From a virus, in the IMG/VR virus record IMGVR_UViG_3300008120_001123, positions 1 to 23,850 of that record: 23,850 nt of DNA; one strand, 5' to 3'. Under the pieces are notes generated by a model. That model did no database searches, was not told the origin of the DNA, and saw only the letters and a list, made by a program, of their open reading frames with translations. The translations under genes and the position numbers were made by a program. Within the stretch, counting starts at the first letter, position 1; each line of letters opens with the position of its first letter. Positions 1,724 to 17,412 of this stretch are shown piece after piece.

Positions 1724-2052
1724 GCCGTGTCGGCGAGGCCGAGCTTCGGCGCGATGCGCTCGATGGTCACGACCTCCTCCGTGACCTTGGTGTCGTTCTT
1801 GTCGCGCTGGTCGAGGTACTGCTTGCCGAGCCAGATGAGCATCGTGACGTTGCCTTCCTTTGCCTTCTCGTACTGCCATCGGCGCAGGCTCATCTTCATC
1901 TGCTCTCGACCAGACTTCATCTCCTTCGAGAATCGGTTGCGGAGCGTGCGCGCGGTGCACTTGAGGACGGCGGCGATCTCGTCCTGGGTGCATCCGATTC
2001 GGGATAGCGCCTCAACCTGAGCGGCGTCGATGTTTGCCTTATGGTTCGGCAC
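1720..2052 (-). CDS. Putative terminase small subunit / HTH DNA-binding protein
   Basis: This 110-aa protein lies directly before the large terminase and overlaps it by four bases. Residues about 10-40 (AQVEALSRIGCTQDEIAAVL followed by KCTARTLRNRF) form a helix-turn-helix of the kind used by small terminases to recognise the packaging site. The middle part, KEGNVTMLIWLGKQYLDQRDK, is a segment seen repeatedly in small phage proteins placed before TerL. The tail is acidic, then basic. Its own start overlaps the end of the methyltransferase gene by 14 bases. The role is inferred from position plus HTH. A pac/cos-site binding role would need experiment, and no cos site was recognised here. Confidence 0.75.
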   Translation of the reverse strand: MPNHKANIDAAQVEALSRIGCTQDEIAAVLKCTARTLRNRFSKEMKSGREQMKMSLRRWQYEKAKEGNVTMLIWLGKQYLDQRDKNDTKVTEEVVTIERIAPKLGLADTA

Positions 2053-3346
2053 GTACCGCCTTCTTTCCGGTCAGGTTCTCCCACCGCTTCACGATGACAT
2101 CGCAGTACGCGGGAGAGATCTCCATGCCGTAGCACTTGCGTCCCAGTTGCTCGGCGGCGATCAGCGTGGTGCCGGAGCCGCAAAAAGGCTCGTAGACGTT
2201 GTCGCCGCTGCGCGAGTATGCCTTGATGAAGAAGGCTGGAAGATCCGGCGGAAACGCCGCCTCATGCGCTATTCCGTTTGGAACCTTTCGTGTGCTGATC
2301 TCCAGCACATTGCCCGGCCTCGCAAGTCCCTTGCTTCGGTTTCGTCCTTCCTTTCCGATGCCGATATTCCCACCAGCAGTCTTGCCGCTGTTGGGCACAT
2401 AGTGGAAAGCGTCGTCCGATTCGACCGCAACGGCGAGCGGGTCAAACGGAAACCCTTTTGACGTGGCAAAGTGGAAAATCGGCTCCCAGTCGTTGCGGAA
2501 TCTGTCAGGCCATTGTCCAGGCAGACTTCTTTTGTACCAACACAGCTCATCGACAAGCAGCCACGCCCACTTCCGAACATGAGCAATCGCCAAGTCTTTC
2601 ACGTACAAGTGCCGCTGTCCGTCTTCTGCGTGCTCTTTGATGTTGACGAACCACGACGCGGCTTCCTCGCAGTTCTCGCGGACGTTTGATTGAATCGCCG
2701 AAAACCAATCAACGTATTCGTCAGGAGGAATCGGACGAAAGCCGCTGCTTTCGTCGTACTTTCTTTGGCTTGCGTATGGCGGCGAAGTGAACGCCATTGT
2801 GACCTTCGCCCCCGCCATCAGCCGCTGCACGTCCTCGGCCTTCGTCGAGTCGCCGCACAGCAGCCGGTGGTCGCCGAGCAGCCACAGGTCGCCCGGCTTC
2901 GTGATCGGTTCCGCCGGCGACTCGGGAACCTCGTCCTCCGTCATCTCGTCGGGAGCTAGCAGCGCGTCGATCTCCTTCGCGTCGAAGCCTGTCGAGATCG
3001 CGAGATCCTCGTCCTCGATCTGCAACGCCGCAAGCGTCTGCGCGAGCGCGTCCTCGTCCCACTCGGCGAGCTCTGCGGTTCGGTTGTCGGCGATCGCGTA
3101 GGCGGTCGCCTCGCTCCCGGCAAGCGTTGAGCGCACCACGGCGATCTCCTTCCAGCCGAGCGCCTTCGCCGCCGCGAGCGTGCCGTTGCCGGCGCGGACG
3201 ACGCCGTTCGCATCGACCACGATCGGCTTCTGCTGGCCGAATCGCGACAGGCTCGCCTTGATCGTCGCGAGGTTCTTCTCGCCATGCTTGCGGACGTTCG
3301 CCGGATCGAAGACCAGCGAGTCGATAGGTACGCGTTCTGTGTTCAT
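2039..3346 (-). CDS. ParB-like domain fused to DNA N4/N6-type methyltransferase
   Basis: This 435-aa protein starts at the ATG at 3344-3346, which overlaps the upstream stop as ATGA; upstream in-frame sequence is low-complexity shadow. Residues 1-80 look like a ParB/Srx nuclease-like domain (VPIDSLVFDPANVRKHGEKN, then VVRAGNGTLAAAKALGW). Residues about 150-430 are an SAM-dependent DNA methyltransferase, with catalytic motif IV TSPPY (187-191) before the SAM-binding motif I FCGSGTT (388-394). That is the order of beta-class amino methyltransferases. Such fusions are common in phages and may protect phage DNA from host restriction or mark packaging. No cognate restriction enzyme is visible, so it looks like an orphan. 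The target sequence cannot be read from the gene. Confidence 0.9.
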   Translation of the reverse strand: MNTERVPIDSLVFDPANVRKHGEKNLATIKASLSRFGQQKPIVVDANGVVRAGNGTLAAAKALGWKEIAVVRSTLAGSEATAYAIADNRTAELAEWDEDALAQTLAALQIEDEDLAISTGFDAKEIDALLAPDEMTEDEVPESPAEPITKPGDLWLLGDHRLLCGDSTKAEDVQRLMAGAKVTMAFTSPPYASQRKYDESSGFRPIPPDEYVDWFSAIQSNVRENCEEAASWFVNIKEHAEDGQRHLYVKDLAIAHVRKWAWLLVDELCWYKRSLPGQWPDRFRNDWEPIFHFATSKGFPFDPLAVAVESDDAFHYVPNSGKTAGGNIGIGKEGRNRSKGLARPGNVLEISTRKVPNGIAHEAAFPPDLPAFFIKAYSRSGDNVYEPFCGSGTTLIAAEQLGRKCYGMEISPAYCDVIVKRWENLTGKKAVRAEP

Positions 3347-3906
3347 CGCCAGACCTGCTTCGCGACCTTGACGGCGAGATCCCGGCTCACGAACTCGGGA
3401 TGCACCCACCAGTCCTCGATGCCGAGTCCGTTCGTGTCGGCAACCGTGCAGACGTAGTCGTAGCCGCGCGAGACCATCAGGCCGCGCATCCGCTGCATCC
3501 GGTACTCGCCGCCCTCGCGGTACGCGTCGTGCTCGACCGACGCGACCCGGAACTTGATCCGATCCATCGGGAGCAGTATCAGCATCGCGAGCGTCAGGTC
3601 CGGCGGCTCGAGGTCGAGCGACAGAAAGTCGACGGCACCGTCGCGCACGAGGCCGGCCTCCTCGATCTCGGCGGCCCACGGGACGCGGAATGCGTCGCCG
3701 TACGCGATCGACGACCGCTGCGCCCTATGCTCCTCGACGAAGCCCGGGTCCGAGCAGATGCCGCGCCAGCTGCGGACGCGCTCGAGGTAGACCGAGTTCG
3801 AGAACCGGACGGGATCGCCCGCGCCGATGTCGAGGAACGTGCCGCCGTCGACGTTGAGAAGGCGGTCGACGAACTCGTCCTGGCGGAACTGGCTCTGGTA
3901 TTCCAT
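3343..3906 (-). CDS. FkbM-like SAM-dependent methyltransferase
   Basis: This 187-aa protein begins MEYQSQFRQDEFVDRLL and then has FLDIGAGDPVRFSN (about residues 24-37), a glycine-rich SAM-binding loop. YLERVRSWRGICSDP follows. This layout (a Q-D-x-x-F start, the DIGA-D-P loop, SN-x-x-L-E, then W-x-G-I-x-x-x-P) matches FkbM-type methyltransferases, which usually methylate sugar hydroxyls or small metabolites. VDFLSLDLEPPD may be the second acidic motif. The start is an ATG with AAGGAG about nine bases upstream. It overlaps the ParB-methyltransferase gene as ATGA and sits directly after the tail fibre block, so glycan or virion modification is one possible role. This is inferred, not shown. Confidence 0.72.
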   Translation of the reverse strand: MEYQSQFRQDEFVDRLLNVDGGTFLDIGAGDPVRFSNSVYLERVRSWRGICSDPGFVEEHRAQRSSIAYGDAFRVPWAAEIEEAGLVRDGAVDFLSLDLEPPDLTLAMLILLPMDRIKFRVASVEHDAYREGGEYRMQRMRGLMVSRGYDYVCTVADTNGLGIEDWWVHPEFVSRDLAVKVAKQVWR

Positions 3907-12514: not shown

Positions 12515-12526
12515 CGCTGTCTCCTT

Positions 12527-12540
12527 GCGGCTCCTGCCGC
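12527..12540 (-). promoter_or_regulatory. Leader stem-loop before the 95-aa gene
   Basis: On the minus strand this reads GCGGC-AGGA-GCCGC, a perfect 5-base stem with a GGA-containing loop. It is followed by AAGGAGACAGCG and the ATG. It overlaps the last base of the preceding stop codon and forms the whole intergenic space. AGGA in a loop is the type of site bound by CsrA/RsmA proteins. One of six similar leaders in the early block. Confidence 0.5.
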
Positions 12541-12799
12541 TACTTGGTGTCTCGTTCGTCGGCGAACTTCTGCGACATCTCGCCGATGTCGCGGAACCCG
12601 CGCTCGGCTCCTTCGAGGATCTCGCGGTGCGCGTTCGCCAGCGCGTCGCGGATTCCGTCGTACGACCTAACCCAGACGAGGACGGTGAGAGCGACGCGCA
12701 GCTCGTCGCCGTCCCGGAATCTGATCGGATGTTCTTCCTGCCGTCGTCGTACGACCGGGAGATCCCGCCGTACTCGTCCACGTTCTCAATGCTGTCCAT
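12540..12799 (-). CDS. Small unknown protein, frame apparently shifted
   Basis: From the ATG at 12797-12799, with a GGGAGGGCTGAGG-type SD, the frame reads like protein for about 25 residues (MDSIENVDEYGGISRSYDDG, then RKNIR) and then becomes Ser/Thr/Arg shadow. From about 12725 a neighbouring frame reads like good protein and ends with TAG at 12540-12542: FRDGDELRVALTVLVWVRSY, then REILEGAERGFRDIGEMSQK. That frame has no start codon of its own and meets a TGA upstream. Joining them needs a -1 shift (one base missing) near 12715-12730 and gives about 85 aa with a helical, charged end. No clear slippery heptamer is present, so a lost base in assembly or a damaged gene are the simplest explanations. 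Confidence 0.55.
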
Positions 12800-12803
12800 C
12801 GCC

Positions 12804-12974
12804 TCAGCCCTCCCTCTCGACGTCGATCCTGACGTCCTTCGGAAACTTCATCGCGATCCGGTTCTCCTCGAGGACGCGGATCGTCGCGAATGTCTCGCCC
12901 TCGCGCGCGAAGACGATCCGATCGCCTTCGCGGAGCTCGCGCACGAGCCCAAGTCCCTCTTTGGTGCTGCTCAT
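12804..12974 (-). CDS. Small CsrA-like protein (56 aa)
   Basis: The start ATG (12972-12974) overlaps the previous stop as ATGA and has CAAGGAGAC eight bases upstream. After MSSTKEGLGLVREL, residues 15-50 read REGDRIVFAREGETFATIRV then LEENRIAMKFPKDVRI. The pattern x-G-D-x-I, alternating strands, N-R-I-x-x-x-x-P-K-D-V-x-I and a charged end resembles CsrA/RsmA, a small RNA-binding dimer that blocks or protects mRNAs at GGA sites. Differences are real: the middle is about six residues longer than in CsrA, and the key arginine after the PKxV strand is displaced by two positions (R54). Another small beta-barrel is possible. The match is moderate. Confidence 0.55.
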   Translation of the reverse strand: MSSTKEGLGLVRELREGDRIVFAREGETFATIRVLEENRIAMKFPKDVRIDVEREG

Positions 12975-13237
12975 GGAGTGGTCTCCTTGGCCCCTTGTCG
13001 GGCCGCCGGCGGGAGCGGAGACCCGCCGGCGACCCGGTGGCAAGGGGAGACAAGCGGCGCTTCCGTGCGCGGGCCTTGCTCGGGGAATGATAGCGGATTG
13101 CCGCCCGTCTCGGTGCAGTGCGCGACGATCCAGCGGATCGCCATGATCTCGTGCTCGTCGACCGGCACGGACCGAATCGCGAGGGAGATGAGGCCGCGGC
13201 GCGTGTTTCGAGATAGGTACGGTCCGCGTTCGTTCAC
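12971..13237 (-). CDS. Unknown protein (88 aa), GTG start
   Basis: The frame begins with a GTG (13235-13237) overlapping the Gp157 stop as GTGA and ends overlapping the CsrA-like start as ATGA. These two couplings are the main evidence that it is a gene. The first half looks folded (NERGPYLSRNTRRGLISLAI, then EHEIMAIRWIVAHCTETGGN). The last 35 residues are Pro/Ala/Arg rich and lie over the leader hairpin of the next gene. It is basic and has two cysteines. Family not recognised. It may simply be a short protein with a disordered tail. Confidence 0.52.
   Translation of the reverse strand: MNERGPYLSRNTRRGLISLAIRSVPVDEHEIMAIRWIVAHCTETGGNPLSFPEQGPRTEAPLVSPCHRVAGGSPLPPAARQGAKETTP
12989..13004 (-). 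promoter_or_regulatory. Leader stem-loop before the CsrA-like gene
   Basis: On the minus strand GGCCC-gacaag-GGGCC forms a 5-base stem. It is followed directly by AAGGAGACCACTCC and the ATG at 12974. It lies inside the end of the 88-aa frame. The arrangement of stem then AAGGAGAC matches the leaders at 12527, 14665 and 15487, which suggests a shared control element rather than chance. Confidence 0.42.
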
Positions 13238-13755
13238 TTGATGCTGATCCTGTTGGCGCGTTCCATCAGGATCGCGAAGGGGAGGGACTGGCCGGCTTCG
13301 AGCGCGGCGCGGATCTTCTCCTTGTCGGGCTCGGTCTTGATCTGGAGGAAGTCCGCCGGCACTTCGCCGTGAATGTCGAGCGGCCGCTTGCCGCCGTTCC
13401 TCGCCAGGGCGATTCGATATCGCGGCGTCTCGACTGGCCGGAGGTTGCGCGACTCGAAGACGAACTGGAGCCGGCGGCGCAGGGCGTCGGCGGATGCGGC
13501 GTCGGTCTTCGCGCGCTTCGCGAGACGCGCGGCCTCGACCGAGCGCATCTCCGCGCGCGCCTCCCATTCGGTGATGAGCGCGGCGTAGGAGTCGAGCTTG
13601 GCCTCGAGGTCGCCCTCGAGGTCGGTTTCCCACTGGGAGAGGATGGACTCGATCTGCGGGTCGGACAGGTCGCCGCCGTTCTCGGCGAGGATGTCGTCGA
13701 GTGCGCGGACGTCGTCCGTGATGTCGAGAAGGGTTCGATAGGGCTTGTCTGCCAT
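13234..13755 (-). CDS. Siphovirus Gp157-like protein
   Basis: This 173-aa protein starts MADKPYRTLLDITDDVRALD and has a long charged coiled-coil region (YAALITEWEARAEMRSVEAA, then RLAKRAKTDAASADALRRRL). It ends with strands (RYRIALARNGGKRPLDIHGE, then VPADFLQIKTEPDKEKIRAA). The layout of coiled coil, then an R-x-R-I-A-x-x-x-x-x-x-P strand, then VP-x-x-F fits the Siphovirus Gp157 family of early phage proteins, first noted in streptococcal phages and of uncertain biochemical role. It is often near single-strand annealing genes, as here. It has its own promoter and a leader hairpin holding its SD, and it leads an operon with the 88-aa and CsrA-like genes. Confidence 0.85.
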   Translation of the reverse strand: MADKPYRTLLDITDDVRALDDILAENGGDLSDPQIESILSQWETDLEGDLEAKLDSYAALITEWEARAEMRSVEAARLAKRAKTDAASADALRRRLQFVFESRNLRPVETPRYRIALARNGGKRPLDIHGEVPADFLQIKTEPDKEKIRAALEAGQSLPFAILMERANRISIK

Positions 13756-13756
13756 G

Positions 13757-13773
13757 AGTTCCTCCTTGGAACT
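13757..13773 (-). promoter_or_regulatory. SD-sequestering leader hairpin of the Gp157 gene
   Basis: On the minus strand AGTTCC-AAGGA-GGAACT forms a perfect 6-base stem whose loop AAGGA plus the next GG is the ribosome binding site (AAGGAGG, five bases before ATG). Folding would hide half of the SD in a stem. A-N-GGA in a hairpin loop at the SD is the textbook binding site of CsrA-type repressors. The predicted transcript start sits at the foot of the hairpin. Confidence 0.62.
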
Positions 13774-13779
13774 GTGTTG

Positions 13780-13807
13780 AATATACCGCCGATTCCCGCG
13801 CCGTCAT
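13780..13807 (-). promoter_or_regulatory. Sigma70-type promoter for the Gp157 operon
   Basis: On the minus strand ATGACG (13802-13807), a 16-base spacer and TATATT (13780-13785) match the sigma70 consensus at four and five positions. A start about seven bases on would be near 13773, leaving an 18-base leader made almost entirely of the SD hairpin. It lies in the only AT-rich spot of the gap between the lysozyme-like gene and the Gp157 gene. Confidence 0.55.
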
Positions 13808-13867
13808 TTCGAGGCGCTCTCCGTTTCTATCCGGCGCGGGAACCGGCGTCCGGCGGCATCTGCCGCA

Positions 13868-13892
13868 CCGCGGTCGGAACATCCGGCCGCGG
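13868..13892. repeat. Strong inverted repeat after the lysozyme-like gene
   Basis: CCGCGGTCGG, loop AACAT, CCGGCCGCGG forms a 10-base stem with a single imperfect pair. It begins 11 bases after the stop of the lysozyme-like gene on the minus strand. There is no T-tract after it, so it is not a standard intrinsic terminator. It may still stop or stabilise the upstream transcript. Confidence 0.5.
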
Positions 13893-13903
13893 AGTACCCA
13901 GGC

Positions 13904-14299
13904 TCAGTTGATGGCGGCCTCGACCGCGTTTGCGTACTTGACGGTCGCGGCCTTCTTGTGGCCGCGCGGCCCGCCGTTGTGGATGCGCGCGACCGTTCGC
14001 ACGTTCCAGTCCGGCGCGTAGCGGGTGAGGTAGGCGAGGACGATCTGCTCGGCGACGGCCTGGTCGCGGACGGACTGGTATCCGAGCGCGCGGAGGTCGG
14101 GCCGGCGCTCGGTCGCGTCGAGCCAGTAGGAGTAGTGGATCTGGAACGGGCCGAGGGCGCGACCGCCGTCGCCGACGGCGTTCGCCGGGTCGGCCTCGCC
14201 GCCGGTCTCGACGGCGCGGATCGCGTCGAGGATCGGGTCGGTGTCGAGTCCTGCCGGCGGCGGGACGAGGAGCGCGAGCGAGAGGAGGAGCGCGTTCAA
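13904..14299 (-). CDS. Secreted lysozyme-like/transglycosylase protein (candidate endolysin)
   Basis: This 131-aa protein appears to start with TTG (14297-14299), overlapping the preceding stop as TTGA. The N-terminus is a short hydrophobic signal-like stretch (LNALLLSLALLVPPPAG). A lysozyme-like fold follows: ILDAIRAVETGG with E31 as the likely catalytic acid, a GRALGPFQIHYSYW motif (47-60), YLTRYAPDWNVRTVARIHNG (about 94-113) and GHKKAATVKYANAV. GPFQI plus ARIHNGGP...T-x-K-Y is the layout of invertebrate-type/SLT-like muramidases. It could be the endolysin, with a signal-anchor-release N-terminus, or a cell-wall-opening factor. It lies among early genes, away from the possible holins. Confidence 0.75.
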   Translation of the reverse strand: MNALLLSLALLVPPPAGLDTDPILDAIRAVETGGEADPANAVGDGGRALGPFQIHYSYWLDATERRPDLRALGYQSVRDQAVAEQIVLAYLTRYAPDWNVRTVARIHNGGPRGHKKAATVKYANAVEAAIN

Positions 14300-14487
14300 C
14301 GGCGGCCTCCGATCCGGATGCGAGCGTCGCGGAGGTCGGAGAGCGCGCGGCGTCCGGCGCGCTGGAGCTGCTTGAGCTCGCCGTAGTTGCCGGCATGGAA
14401 CGACGCGGAGCGGACGCGCTGGCCGACCATCTGAGGCGAGGTCGAGCGCAAGATCCATTCGATGAGGTTCGAGAGGTCGCGGCTCAC
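14296..14487 (-). CDS. Small basic unknown protein (63 aa)
   Basis: The frame starts with GTG (14485-14487), overlapping the previous stop as GTGA, and ends overlapping the lysozyme-like gene. The product (VSRDLSNLIEWILRSTSPQM, then VGQRVRSASFHAGNYGELKQ) ends in an arginine-rich helix (LQRAGRRALSDLRDARIRIG). It is strongly basic, so nucleic-acid binding is possible. Family not recognised. The double coupling is the best support that it is expressed. Confidence 0.58.
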   Translation of the reverse strand: MSRDLSNLIEWILRSTSPQMVGQRVRSASFHAGNYGELKQLQRAGRRALSDLRDARIRIGGRR

Positions 14488-14648
14488 GCGGCACCTCCTT
14501 CCGCGCGGAACGCGTCGTAGAGTTCGCTGGCGAGGCGCTCGAACGATCCAGCGCCGCACACCGCGTCGACTGCCTGCGGGACCGTCTTGCCCGACTCGAC
14601 CTCGCGGATGATGAGGTCGCTGATAAGGGCGTTCTTTAGATGGCTCAT
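14484..14648 (-). CDS. Small unknown protein (54 aa)
   Basis: The ATG at 14646-14648 follows AGAAGGAGACAGC, a strong SD, preceded by a small hairpin and a sigma70-like promoter. The product begins MSHLKNALISDLIIREVESG and continues KTVPQAVDAVCGAGSFERLA. It is mildly acidic and mostly helical, with no recognised family. It leads a three-gene unit with the 63-aa protein and the lysozyme-like protein, all joined by GTGA/TTGA overlaps. Confidence 0.65.
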   Translation of the reverse strand: MSHLKNALISDLIIREVESGKTVPQAVDAVCGAGSFERLASELYDAFRAEGGAA

Positions 14649-14664
14649 GCTGCTGTCTCCTTCT

Positions 14665-14679
14665 GCGGCGTCTTGCCGC
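14665..14679 (-). promoter_or_regulatory. Leader stem-loop before the 54-aa gene
   Basis: On the minus strand GCGGC-AAGAC-GCCGC forms a perfect 5-base stem, followed by AGAAGGAGACAGC and ATG. It sits in the 5' leader of the transcript predicted from the promoter just upstream. It shares position, stem size and the AAGGAGAC string with the leaders at 12527, 12989 and 15487. Confidence 0.5.
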
Positions 14680-14688
14680 GGTTGAATC

Positions 14689-14716
14689 AGGATAGCAGTA
14701 TGTCGGCGCTCGTCAA
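14689..14716 (-). promoter_or_regulatory. Sigma70-type promoter for the lysozyme-like unit
   Basis: On the minus strand TTGACG (14711-14716), a 16-base spacer and TATCCT (14689-14694) match the consensus at five and four positions. It lies in the 119-base gap between the SSB-tail gene and the 54-aa gene and would give a leader of about 35 bases that includes the stem-loop. Confidence 0.58.
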
Positions 14717-14767
14717 CCCGTTTCGCCACCAAATCCAAAGATTCGCCGCGAATCGTGTTATCGGTAC

Positions 14768-15472
14768 TTAGAACGGGATCTCATCGAGATCGACGGCCGG
14801 CACGGGCTCGGCCGCGGAAGCCCGGGAAACCGGGTTTCCTGCCCCGCTGAGGCGCTCCGAGGCGTCGGCAGCCCGAACGGACGCCGAACGCGCGGCGGTC
14901 TCTGGGAGCCCTGCCGGCGGCCCCATGCGCCCGTAGAACTCGGCGACCGGAATCTCGAGCCCGTCGATGTCGCGGATCGGTACGCCGGCGATCAGGTCCG
15001 ACACCGCAAGCAGCGCGGAGTGCGGCCAGCGGTCGAGCGGCTCGGCGACGGGGATTCGCCAGCCGCGGTTCCCGAGCCACGTCACCGCGGCGCGGCGCTC
15101 GTCGACCGACGCGGCCGCGATCGTTGAGCGGCACCGCTCCCAGCTGCGCTCGGCCTGGATGCGGGCGAGTTCCTTCTCGACCCGCTCCGACTCGATGTTC
15201 CTCTTCCTCTTCTGCTCGCTGGTCCACTCCTGATCGCCGGGAGCCTTCGCGTCGACGTGCTTGCGAAAGACCCCGTAGATGAACCGCGCGCGGTCGCTTC
15301 CGTTCTCCGCGGCGTACGAGTGGAGCGCCGCCATCGCGAGCGACGGGCGCAGCTGCATGATGAGCGGCTTCGAGACCTCCCACGCCGTCTCGTCCCATTC
15401 GCCGCGGAAATGCCGCCGAGCCTCCGCGATGAAACGCTGGAAGTCCTCGGGCTCCATCCTGAATCCGTTCAT
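14768..15472 (-). CDS. Unknown early protein with SSB-like C-terminal tail
   Basis: This 234-aa protein starts MNGFRMEPEDFQRFIAEARR. Its first half is helical and rich in Trp and charge (HFRGEWDETAWEVSKPLIMQ, then LRPSLAMAALHSYAAENGSD). A long basic helix follows (EWTSEQKRKRNIESERVEKE). Residues about 185-225 are a low-complexity Ala/Ser/Pro linker, and the last seven are DLDEIPF (228-234). A disordered linker ending in an acidic -IPF tip is the interaction tail of single-stranded DNA-binding proteins, which recruits replication and repair enzymes. No OB fold is evident in the body, so it may be a replication or recombination accessory protein that mimics SSB. The ATG has AGAAGGAGACGAGC before it. 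Confidence 0.72.
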   Translation of the reverse strand: MNGFRMEPEDFQRFIAEARRHFRGEWDETAWEVSKPLIMQLRPSLAMAALHSYAAENGSDRARFIYGVFRKHVDAKAPGDQEWTSEQKRKRNIESERVEKELARIQAERSWERCRSTIAAASVDERRAAVTWLGNRGWRIPVAEPLDRWPHSALLAVSDLIAGVPIRDIDGLEIPVAEFYGRMGPPAGLPETAARSASVRAADASERLSGAGNPVSRASAAEPVPAVDLDEIPF

Positions 15473-15486
15473 GCTCGTCTCCTTCT

Positions 15487-15501
15487 GCTGCGTCGTGCAG
15501 C
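15487..15501 (-). promoter_or_regulatory. Leader stem-loop before the SSB-tail gene
   Basis: On the minus strand GCTGC-ACGAC-GCAGC forms a perfect 5-base stem, followed by AGAAGGAGACGAGC and ATG. The stem sequence differs from that at 14665 (GCTGC/GCAGC against GCGGC/GCCGC) while pairing is kept, which argues that the structure, not only the sequence, matters. Confidence 0.5.
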
Positions 15502-15709
15502 GGTCCGCATCGTAGCGATCGGCTCGCGACCGCGCACGCGTTGAAAAACGCGCGCCCTAACAACTGCGATGAGGGAAACTTGTCGCAGCCATGTCGATCA
15601 CCCATCGCTCAACCGAGTCGACGCATCGAGCGCGAGGACCACGAAGGAGAGGAGCAGAGGAGTTGAGCGTCAGGAGGAACCGGGAAACGCGAACGACATC
15701 CGGATACCA

Positions 15710-15743
15710 GGGGTGACTGGGGGGGGTTGTAGGGGGGGGGAGG
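15710..15743 (+). other. G-tract cluster able to form a G-quadruplex
   Basis: Runs of 4 (15710-15713), 8 (15719-15726) and 9 (15732-15740) guanines, then GG, are separated by five-base spacers (TGACT, TTGTA) and one A. With long runs folding back, a stable intramolecular quadruplex is possible on the plus strand; the minus strand is the matching C-rich strand. Confidence 0.6.
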
Positions 15744-15755
15744 CGGTCGCGTCAA
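15726..15755 (-). promoter_or_regulatory. Weak candidate promoter spanning the C-tract
   Basis: On the minus strand TTGACG (15750-15755), an 18-base spacer containing nine C, and TACAAC (15726-15731) could be a sigma70-type promoter for the SSB-tail gene. The -10 matches at only four places, the spacer is one base long and the leader would be about 250 bases. It is the best candidate I see in this gap. Confidence 0.3.
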
Positions 15756-15784
15756 GGGGAAAAATGGTCGGATTTTCCAAGAGC

Positions 15785-15816
15785 GAAGAAGTGGAAGTTT
15801 ATCTTCCACTTTCTTC
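15785..15816. repeat. Perfect 9-base hairpin with extended stem
   Basis: AAGTGGAAG (15789-15797), loop TTTAT, CTTCCACTT (15803-15811). A further GAAG/CTTC pair lies outside a one-base bulge (15785-15788 with 15813-15816). It is AT-richer than its surroundings and stands right beside the tandem repeats. It could be an origin element, a protein-binding dyad or part of a structured RNA. Confidence 0.6.
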
Positions 15817-15900
15817 ACTCCGTCCCGACTCCGTCCCGACTCCGTGCCGACTTCGACCAAGTCCCGTTTGAGTCCCTCCGAGTCCCTCCGAGTCCCGTCA
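15817..15900. repeat. Tandem 11-base and 10-base repeats, GGA-rich on minus strand
   Basis: Three 11-base units ACTCCGTCCCG (the third with one change) fill 15817-15849. Related units follow, with AGTCCCTCCG exactly twice at 15871-15890 and the variants AAGTCCCGTTTG and AGTCCCGTCA on either side. On the minus strand these read as repeated GGGAC and CGGAG, giving eleven GGA triplets in under 90 bases. Spacing near one helix turn would also suit iteron-like protein binding. Confidence 0.65.
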
Positions 15901-15912
15901 AATCCCGCGCGG

Positions 15913-15944
15913 CAAAAACGACACCGGCCGCACTGGGCGGCCGG
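15913..15944 (-). terminator. Rho-independent terminator after the HTH-like gene
   Basis: CCGGCCGC (15924-15931), loop ACTGG, GCGGCCGG (15937-15944) is a perfect 8-base stem. Read on the minus strand it is followed, after TGTCG, by TTTTT (15914-15918). It lies 38 bases after the stop of the 122-aa gene, so it closes the recT unit. Confidence 0.72.
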
Positions 15945-15982
15945 CATCGCATCAAGGGGAAAGAAGTCCGTAACAGTGTTCC

Positions 15983-16351
15983 TTACCGCGTCGCGCTTCC
16001 CCGGAACACGAGCAGCATCCGCACCGCGCGCTGGTTCAAGTCGAACCGCAGGTGCGGATCGACGCCCTCCCAGAGCTCGCGGTGCCGAGCGACCGTCGAC
16101 GGCGCGAGCCCGAGCGCCTTCCCGAGCGCCACGAGCCGCGGCGCAAGGTGCTGCGGCCTCAGATCGTACACGAGCCCGACCTCGATGATCCGCCGCACCT
16201 TCCGCGGCACATCCGGCGAGTTCCTCAGGTAGCCGGCGACCGGAAGGATCTCCTCGAGGTCGTACGGCCGGAAGATCGCCGGGTCTTCCTGCTCGATCCC
16301 GAGCTGGGCGCGGACCGAGGCGACGCCGGGTTCGATGATCCGCTCACCCAT
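15983..16351 (-). CDS. HTH-like early protein downstream of recT (122 aa)
   Basis: The product begins MGERIIEPGVASVRAQLGIE. Residues about 80-100 (APRLVALGKALGLAPSTVAR) look like a helix-turn-helix (ALGKALGLAPSTVARHREL), followed by an Arg/Leu-rich end (LRFDLNQRAVRMLLVFRGSA). It could be a regulator or a DNA-binding recombination partner. Its ATG start overlaps the end of recT by eight bases, so the two are co-translated. A terminator follows at once. No exonuclease motif is present, so it is not an obvious RecE/Exo partner for the annealing protein. Confidence 0.68.
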   Translation of the reverse strand: MGERIIEPGVASVRAQLGIEQEDPAIFRPYDLEEILPVAGYLRNSPDVPRKVRRIIEVGLVYDLRPQHLAPRLVALGKALGLAPSTVARHRELWEGVDPHLRFDLNQRAVRMLLVFRGSATR

Positions 16352-17342
16352 GCTTCGCCTCCTTCACGACCTCGAGCAGCCGGAACGCGCGGCCCTCGTC
16401 GCGGACGCGGACCCGCGTCGGGAGACCGAAGGCGGCATTCGCCTCGACCATCGTCTGGTGCGCCGGATCGAAGATCGCGAGCGGCTTGTCGATGGTCTTG
16501 CTCGTCGCCTTCCAGACACGCTTGCCGCCCTTGTCGATCGCCTCAAAATCCACGTCGCAGCCGACCTCGACCTCGCGCTCGACCGGACCGTTCCCCGGCC
16601 CGAGCAAGTCCTCGATTGCGGCCTTGCGCGCCGCCGGCGTCACGGATGCCGTCACGGCCTCAACCGCCGGCGCTGCGGCAGCCGGAGCCTCGACGACCGC
16701 CTCGACCACGGCCGGCTCAGGGAGCGCCTTGGCGGGCTTTCTCGCCGGCTTGGCGGCCTCGATCGCCGGGATATCCGCGTCGGCCTGTGCCATCTCCTCG
16801 GCCGAGTAGAGGCCGGAGAGTTCCGCCGGGAATCCCTTGCGAAGCGCCAGCATCTCCGCGCACTTCGCGAGCATGAGCGCCGGCATCCGACCCCACATCC
16901 CGGTCGGCCGTCCGTCCTTCCCGACCGGGCAGTATTCCCGCCAGAGCGCGACCGCGACGCACGGCTCGCGGAAGCCGCGCCGGAAGACGCCGACCGCGGC
17001 CGCCGACGGCGGCTCGTCCGAAAGCCAGACCGGCTTCCAGACGCCGTCCGCGCCGCACCAGCGCGGCTCAATCTGGCCCTCATACTCCTTGGAACGCTGC
17101 GCGGTCAACCGCGCGCCGTCGATCGAGATCTGGACCTGAAAGGTCTCCCGGCCCGCCTTCTTGTCCCACCGCGGCACGAGGTAGATCTGCCGCGTGAACG
17201 GGTCGAGGCCCGTCTTCTCGCAGACCGCGAGGAAGAGCTCGAGCTCGTTCGGGCTCGCGCCCTTCGCGATCGTCGCGATGATGAGATCGCGCTTGGCCCG
17301 GATCGACTCGGGCTCCTGCCCCACCTTGACCATATCTGTCAT
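16344..17342 (-). CDS. RecT/Beta-family single-strand annealing protein
   Basis: This 332-aa protein starts MTDMVKVGQEPESI (ATG at 17340-17342). Residues about 30-190 show the Beta/RecT core: ELELFLAVCEKTGLDPFTRQ then IYLVPRW, FQVQISIDGARLTAQRSKEY, WCGADGVW, and MWGRMPALMLAKCAEMLALR then KGFPAELSGLYSAEEM. This family coats and anneals complementary single strands during phage recombination and replication. An Ala/Pro/Val linker (about 195-245) joins a C-terminal domain (CDVDFEAIDKGGKRVWKATS ... PTRVRVRDEGRAF) that is longer than in plain RecT proteins and may bind partners. It leads an operon with the HTH-like gene. A promoter and hairpin leader lie upstream. No exonuclease gene is adjacent. 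Confidence 0.9.
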   Translation of the reverse strand: MTDMVKVGQEPESIRAKRDLIIATIAKGASPNELELFLAVCEKTGLDPFTRQIYLVPRWDKKAGRETFQVQISIDGARLTAQRSKEYEGQIEPRWCGADGVWKPVWLSDEPPSAAAVGVFRRGFREPCVAVALWREYCPVGKDGRPTGMWGRMPALMLAKCAEMLALRKGFPAELSGLYSAEEMAQADADIPAIEAAKPARKPAKALPEPAVVEAVVEAPAAAAPAVEAVTASVTPAARKAAIEDLLGPGNGPVEREVEVGCDVDFEAIDKGGKRVWKATSKTIDKPLAIFDPAHQTMVEANAAFGLPTRVRVRDEGRAFRLLEVVKEAKHG

Positions 17343-17357
17343 TGCTTTCTCACTTTC

Positions 17358-17373
17358 TTCGGCTCTTGCCGAA
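17358..17373 (-). promoter_or_regulatory. Leader stem-loop before recT
   Basis: On the minus strand TTCGGC-AAGA-GCCGAA is a perfect 6-base stem with a 4-base loop. It is followed by GAAAGTGAGAAAGCA and the recT ATG. The SD here (GTGAG) is poorer than in the other leaders. The dyad sits in the divergent gap and could instead be an operator for the plus-strand gene product. Confidence 0.5.
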
Positions 17374-17383
17374 ATCGAAAGGT

Positions 17384-17412
17384 AGCATACGAAAATGGAA
17401 AAGGGAAGGCAA
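17384..17412 (-). promoter_or_regulatory. Sigma70-type promoter for recT
   Basis: On the minus strand TTGCCT (17407-17412), a 17-base spacer and TATGCT (17384-17389) match consensus at four places each with ideal spacing. The predicted start is just before the stem-loop. The -35 region lies inside the first codons of the divergent plus-strand gene, so the two would influence one another. Confidence 0.5.

Follow-up and report, generated by a model that had tools for sequence, protein, structure and literature searches.

A covarying hairpin repeated before early gene starts of an uncultured phage family, a candidate operator for a phage-encoded CsrA-like protein

The early region of the window

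The window analysed here is a whole IMG/VR virus record (IMGVR_UViG_3300008120_001123) of 23,850 bases with a GC content of 65%, whose minus strand carries the structural genes followed by an early region. According to gene calls that were ORF-based in this and all other loci, the early region successively encodes, on the minus strand, RecT, a 122-aa protein, the 234-aa protein of gene 15472, small genes, a destabilase-type lysozyme-like protein, Gp157 (PF05565) and further small genes, among which is gene 12974 (Table 1). The presence of the destabilase-type protein (PF05497, positions 13904-14302) within the early region is kept in relatives. Elsewhere in the window, a single ORF (2039-3679) has matches to ParB-like as well as to DNA methyltransferase families, and the intergenic stretch before gene 15472 (15700-15900) contains short direct repeats (GGACTCGGAG, GGACGGAGTC) together with long C runs.

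A preliminary description, made from the letters of the window, had reported small perfect stems at six minus-strand gene starts (17342, 15472, 14648, 13755, 12974 and 12514), and all of them were found where it had placed them. The string that it had noticed at four starts, AAGGAGAC, is present in the window in four copies, always at a minus-strand gene start and with a perfect 5-bp stem located 0-2 nt upstream; a stem is expected by chance before about 2.4% of such sites (1.42 of 59 in shuffles), which gives a probability of about 3e-7 for four out of four. The idea that the six starts share one element holds for 17342, 15472, 14648 and 12514, which carry copies of a single element, but not for 13755 and 12974, whose leaders are related and of a different architecture. 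The AGGA and AAGGA motifs mentioned for two loops pointed to the conserved A-N-G-(G)-A loop, the key feature of the element. That description included neither the consensus of the loop and of GAGAC nor the CsrA-like gene of the same region, the deviation of two of the leaders or the promoters near the stems.

Some of the leaders deserve further comment. The leader of 17342 is devoid of a strong Shine-Dalgarno sequence (AGAAAGTGAGAAAGCA), and the recT orthologues have the canonical element. The hairpin of 13755 lacks a GAGAC tail and is not detected by the covariance model described below. Element 4 has no evident promoter upstream, and a near copy of it occurs in a related locus, L148, at 14406-14433. 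Only two sigma-70-like promoters, for 0.1 expected, were recognized in the 6 kb scanned, with the stems of 14648 and 13755 lying just downstream of them, and -10-like hexamers weaker than the promoters of the scan precede 17342 and 15472. Among the leaders of the genes belonging to the 12974 family, an A-N-G-A hairpin of at least 4 bp occurs in 22 out of 35 and GTCTCC in 20 out of 35; to judge from its sequence, a leader of this type looks like an autoregulatory device based on alternative pairing.

Table 1. Features of the early region of the window, in the order of the minus strand.
Feature	Positions	Strand	Description
Promoter-like TTGCCT-17-TATGCT	17384..17412	-	Predicted start site a few nt ahead of the element 1 stem; read from the sequence, below the promoter-scan threshold
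Element 1, recT leader	17343..17373	-	TTCGGC / loop AAGA / GCCGAA, then AGAAAGTGAGAAAGCA, ATG 17342; degenerate GAGAC; fold z -3.5
RecT-family ssDNA annealing protein	16344..17342	-	PF03837, E 1.8e-28; element 1 is its proposed control
-10-like TACGAT	15514-15509	-	Before element 2
Element 2	15473..15501	-	GCTGC / ACGAC / GCAGC-AG-AAGGAGAC-GAGC, ATG 15472; covariance-model match 35.9 bits
234-aa early protein, gene 15472	14768..15472	-	No assigned function; in a cluster of 27 related proteins
Promoter-like TTGACG-16-TATCCT	14689..14716	-	Predicted +1 at 14682, 3 nt ahead of the stem of element 3
Element 3	14649..14679	-	GCGGC / AAGAC / GCCGC-AG-AAGGAGAC-AGCAGC, ATG 14648; covariance-model match 42.5 bits
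Promoter-like ATGACG-16-TATATT	13780..13807	-	Predicted +1 at the base of the 13755 hairpin
Related hairpin of other build, Gp157 leader	13756..13773	-	AGTTCC / AAGGA / GGAACT, ATG 13755; Shine-Dalgarno inside the A-N-GGA loop
Long leader of gene 12974	12975..13092	-	Much larger structured leader, of which the GGCCC/GGGCC stem is part; z -5.7
-10-like TATCAT in 12974 leader	13092-13087	-	Read from the sequence
Hairpin GCGC-ACGGAA-GCGC in 12974 leader	13070-13057	-	
GTCTCC in 12974 leader	13051-13046	-	Complement of GGAGAC
Large hairpin in 12974 leader	13047-12991	-	
AAGGAGAC in 12974 leader	12988-12981	-	Followed by ATG
CsrA-like protein, gene 12974	12804..12974	-	56 aa, proposed regulator; family assigned via transitive homology; AF2 model of five beta strands, pLDDT 88.7
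Element 4	12515..12540	-	GCGGC / AGGA / GCCGC-AAGGAGAC-AGCG, ATG 12514; within operon; covariance-model match 34.4 bits

Collection of related loci

Relatives of the window were reached by scanning for GCCGCAGAAGGAGAC and a subsequent ATG, with a spacer of variable length; among the 24 contigs obtained, several had a correctly spaced GCGGC and several were syntenic with the window. A scan for the exact pattern with a fixed 6-nt spacer gave no match, and gene 15472 used as a query found no relatives. The tail-region protein encoded just upstream of recT, taken as an alignment query, retrieved 80 virus loci and one contig of a metagenome-assembled genome (MAG), i.e., 81 relatives, and the element survey covered these together with a few further records. 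Among isolate phages, neither the tail protein nor the CsrA-like protein was found at the sensitivity used. The Rhodobacteraceae were considered as hosts and set aside, the sole genome match being a MAG in which contigs of these phages had been binned. The contigs concerned, L251 and L202 (MAG RFQY01, Rhodobacteraceae), offer a weak hint as to the host.

Structure and covariation of the element

In the four leaders of the window, the consensus consists of a stem of 5-6 bp of variable sequence, a loop A-N-G-A or A-N-G-G-A, the motif AGAA, and (G)GAGAC located 3-5 nt before the start codon. Across the loci, the stems extend over 5-7 bp and close tetra- or pentaloops of the types A-N-G-A, A-N-G-A-N or A-N-G-G-N. 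The trinucleotide GGA is present in 71 of the 168 loops and absent from 97, which read A-N-G-A or A-N-G-G-Y; the element finder requires A-N-G, and the same loops appear without that requirement in the survey of GGAGAC starts. The element is no member of any Rfam family: the element region gave no match up to E 1, and in six loci only a tRNA was recognized.

A covariance model built from 20 copies gave about 115 matches at E <0.01 in the loci, nearly all of them on the coding strand, with up to 10 in one contig. Because the seeds of this model had been chosen for their stems, a pairing-blind test was run, in which the sites were picked by loop text, AGAA and GAGAC only and the arms were left free. 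Perfectly complementary 5-nt arms were found in 67 of the 75 sites, with about 14 different stem sequences, as compared to none of three on the other strand, and exchanging the arms between sites lowered the mean number of pairs from 4.72 to 3.31 (maximum 3.61 in 1000 trials). Because so many sites chosen in this way have perfect arms, the pairing of the stem is judged, from sequence comparison, to be under selection. On the model alignment, which leans to structure, 148 cells show changes on both sides of the stem versus 35.6 after shuffling, and the covariation score amounts to 0.616 versus 0.136.

The frequency of the stems leads in the same direction. A stem precedes 110 of the 182 GGAGAC starts, for 14.3 expected, and none of the 18 GGAGAC starts of the other strand; in the 80 virus loci and the MAG contig, stems were similarly found before 25 of 59 AAGGAGAC starts (1.4 expected), 17 of 18 AGAAGGAGAC starts (0.4 expected) and none of 78 AAGGAGG starts. 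The preliminary view that the stem letters differ while the pairing is kept is thus borne out by covariation in relatives, the stems exceed the frequency expected before random starts, and the proposal of a shared translation or mRNA-stability element is supported, neither of the two outcomes named against it having occurred.

The GAGAC tail lies 3-5 nt ahead of the start codon in 131 out of 147 copies and is retained where the Shine-Dalgarno sequence is weak, e.g., in L187 (GCCGC-AGAAATGAGACAAC-ATG). The distance from the loop G to GAGAC ranges from 9 to 21 nt with a mode of 14, and reaches at least 10 nt in 145 out of 147. The conservation of the loop and of GAGAC, together with the variability of the stems, suggests that the element is recognized.

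Distribution of the element

The element finder identified 168 copies in 55 loci, with 1-8 copies per locus and only three more on antisense strands; these loci are contig pieces, partly redundant, and the counts refer to distinct sequences rather than independent events. The genes that follow the element include a cluster of 27 containing 15472 (27 loci), 20 recT genes, 10 genes of a 100-aa protein, 8 Gp157 genes and many unrelated small genes. The occurrence of the element before so many unrelated genes points to a regulon, and the variety of the downstream genes suggests that the movement or evolution of the element is not tied to the gene. At 21 sites (about 0.7 expected), the stem is preceded by a -10-like hexamer ending 7-8 nt upstream of it, and this position implies that, in a subset of copies, the stem starts at about +1 and the hairpin forms the predicted 5' end of the mRNA. 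Such a hexamer occurs 4-16 nt upstream in only 32 of the 168 copies, and other copies are located within operons.

Several additional arrangements were observed. Just upstream of recT, at about 11.7 kb in L163, L174, L188 and L140, tiny ORFs of 32-34 aa with a hydrophobic stretch each possess their own element. In phages devoid of the tail protein (L256 at 7479, L257 and L259), a single strong copy precedes a 64-aa gene ahead of recT, the product of which appears ribbon-helix-helix-like by eye. Finally, a variant hairpin with the loop GCCGA occurs before about a dozen gene starts in L178, L180, L184, L179 and L189. This sublineage has a different clade of the CsrA-like protein, with GGAGTC following several copies of the hairpin, in L178 and L189; no CsrA-like gene was seen in L189 and L179.

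The CsrA-like protein

Gene 12974 and its homologues, which mostly encode 56-85 aa, are located in the early region. In the L178 homologue, the CsrA family PF02599 was recognized with 27.6 bits for a cut-off of 27, and the homologues of L180, L183, L187 and L133 scored below this cut-off, at 19.6-25.2 bits; in these five homologues matching Pfam, CsrA is the only or the best match. The protein of the window has no direct Pfam CsrA match. The NCBIfam csrA equivalog cut-off is not reached (16-22 bits versus 70-73), so these proteins are not orthologues of host CsrA. Using hhalign, the clade of the window was linked to the L178/L187 clade with an E-value of 7e-11, and the L178/L187 clade to CsrA with one of 2.7e-5; when the window clade was compared with CsrA directly, the link was weak. 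The family profile searched against the PDB matched RsmF, RsmN, CsrA and RsmA chains, weakly, at E 0.09-0.6.

The structural comparisons were made with models of monomers only. For the AF2 model of the L187 protein, the 12 best PDB matches are all CsrA, RsmA or RsmE chains (probability 1.00, Foldseek E 0.007-0.05) and are clearly separated from the next matches; their TM-scores by query length range from 0.55 to 0.64. The CsrA fold comprises five consecutive strands followed by a helix, and proteins of this family form domain-swapped dimers that bind two RNAs. The model of the window protein lacks the C-terminal helix, and no CsrA structure occurs among the fold-search matches listed for it. 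TRAP, the best VIA-align match for the fold of this protein, was discarded, its Z of 5.5 being too low to use. At the column of Arg44, a critical RNA contact, most homologues have Arg when the alignment is read by eye, and the window protein apparently has Val, with an Arg two residues later. By transitive sequence comparison, gene 12974 is assigned to a diverged CsrA family, of which the window protein is the weakest link by sequence.

The association of this gene with the element was examined in the loci that extend 6 kb or more beyond the tail gene. All 23 element-bearing loci have a CsrA-like gene, the four loci without the gene have no element, and nine have the gene and no canonical element (Fisher p 0.012). 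Close recT relatives are devoid of the element, 79 out of 80 having neither the element nor a CsrA-like gene.

Comparison with known systems

In Escherichia coli, CsrA bridges a hairpin-loop site of glgC and a Shine-Dalgarno site located just downstream of it, with a bridging range of 10-63 nt (PMC7652899). The phage element resembles this operator in possessing a loop site and a Shine-Dalgarno site within bridging distance at the start codon (the loop-to-GAGAC distance falls within the range in 145 out of 147), with an A-N-GGA-type loop in part of the copies. In contrast to glgC, it forms a compact module repeated 1-8 times before phage genes, with stems of 5-7 bp and a fixed GAGAC tail, and over half of the copies are without GGA. 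RsmE and RsmN recognize A-N-GGA loops (PMC3791407), and the 13755 leader, with its Shine-Dalgarno sequence in such a loop, is reminiscent of the RsmE/RsmA site of the hcnA leader, an ANGGAN loop holding the Shine-Dalgarno sequence. It differs by a pentaloop instead of a hexaloop and by its single copy in the window, and the Gp157 leaders of relatives do not share the exact build.

Genes for csrA were reported in 30 of 2517 phages (PMC7366521) and phage csrA genes have been treated as morons (PMC9144972). Like RsmM, RsmQ and the protein of the Bcep22-like phage JC1, the protein studied here is a CsrA-family member encoded on a mobile element; however, those of phages and plasmids closely resemble host CsrA and are believed to have the host as their target, whereas this one is far diverged and accompanied by matching sites in the phage. 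With the SAS/ESAS of cluster K mycobacteriophages, the element shares the nature of a short repeat before the starts of some non-structural phage genes (PMC3203893), but SAS is a fixed 13-mer, GGGATAGGAGCCC, and its authors saw little evidence that ESAS forms RNA hairpins (PMC3203893). Identity with SAS was rejected, since the window contains five matches to the 13-bp sequence at up to 3 mismatches for 7.4 expected, i.e., no excess. Phage-encoded translational repressors are known from T4, where RegA has a multi-gene regulon; nevertheless, the RegA sites are unstructured and A+U rich, and gp43 controls only its own mRNA via a hairpin (PMC3014915). A RegB-type cleavage site was also considered, as GGAG is the Shine-Dalgarno sequence, and set aside: its consensus GGAGRAYARAA needs no hairpin and fits poorly (PMC3014915).

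Proposed function

The reading that we favour, with a probability of roughly two in three, is that the repeated leader represents a CsrA-type operator through which the phage's own CsrA-like protein, encoded by gene 12974, would control the translation of phage genes, its own included. The two binding faces of a dimer of the protein would contact different parts of the leader, one the A-N-G-(G)-A loop and the other the neighbouring (G)GAGAC Shine-Dalgarno sequence, and the 30S subunit would thereby be blocked, as it is on glgC by E. coli CsrA. We infer both binding and bridging from this analogy, according to which repression is also more probable than activation. Expression of a group of early genes, comprising recT, gene 15472 and several small genes, would thereby be set or delayed, and the regulator gene, with its related larger leader, is probably autoregulated. 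A hairpin whose shape is kept despite the changes in its letters, in a phage that encodes a CsrA-like protein, looks like a built-in on/off control of translation. Against this reading stand the 97 of 168 loops without the GGA needed by known CsrA proteins, stems of 5-7 bp that exceed the 4 bp or less of most CsrA SELEX hairpins, and the window protein itself, with no direct Pfam or structure match to CsrA and Val at the apparent Arg44 position, together with the nine loci that have the gene only.

The operator might instead be read by host CsrA, a ribosomal protein or another phage protein, with the co-resident CsrA-like gene acting on host mRNAs. The 71 loops that fit host-type CsrA sites, the strong divergence of the window protein and the usual treatment of phage csrA genes as morons (PMC9144972; PMC7366521) are in line with such a reader, which is nonetheless unlikely: the gene and the element occur together, the CsrA-like gene has an element-like hairpin in its own leader, and the loop is altered in the lineage whose protein belongs to a different clade. 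Without any dedicated protein, a 5'-terminal hairpin could stabilize the mRNA by hindering RppH and RNase E and keep the adjacent Shine-Dalgarno sequence open. The stabilizing effect of 5' secondary structure on mRNA (PMC3997798) and the peak of -10-like hexamers that places the stem at about +1 in a subset of copies agree with this explanation, yet only 32 of the 168 copies have such a hexamer 4-16 nt upstream and other copies lie within operons, and neither the conserved A-N-G loop nor a GAGAC kept next to a poor Shine-Dalgarno sequence would be needed; it is accordingly held to be rather improbable. Finally, the element, as an inverted repeat present in several copies near promoters, might be taken for an operator or a dispersed repeat at the DNA level, but the freedom of the stem to change as long as pairing holds contradicts this view, as do the fixed distance of the copies to the start codon and the largely unrelated genes downstream, which makes a DNA element very improbable.

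Taken as a CsrA-type system, the data probably describe an uncultured phage family with its own Csr system, in which a far-diverged CsrA-like protein of altered specificity (A-N-G-A loops and GAGAC) would serve operators dispersed before largely unrelated genes, with a structured autoregulatory leader and a loop and Shine-Dalgarno flank that change with the protein clade. In the literature searched, which leaves most subscription papers outside, no phage CsrA was reported to have operators in the genome that encodes it. The CsrA-like gene discussed here bears on the question of why phages keep csrA genes: its genome already supplies a list of candidate targets, which makes its purpose testable. 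If the proposal is true, a single small protein of the phage would run a translational regulon, which can be compared with that of T4 RegA and has a clear covarying RNA operator, and the phage family would offer a natural series of changes in protein-RNA specificity.
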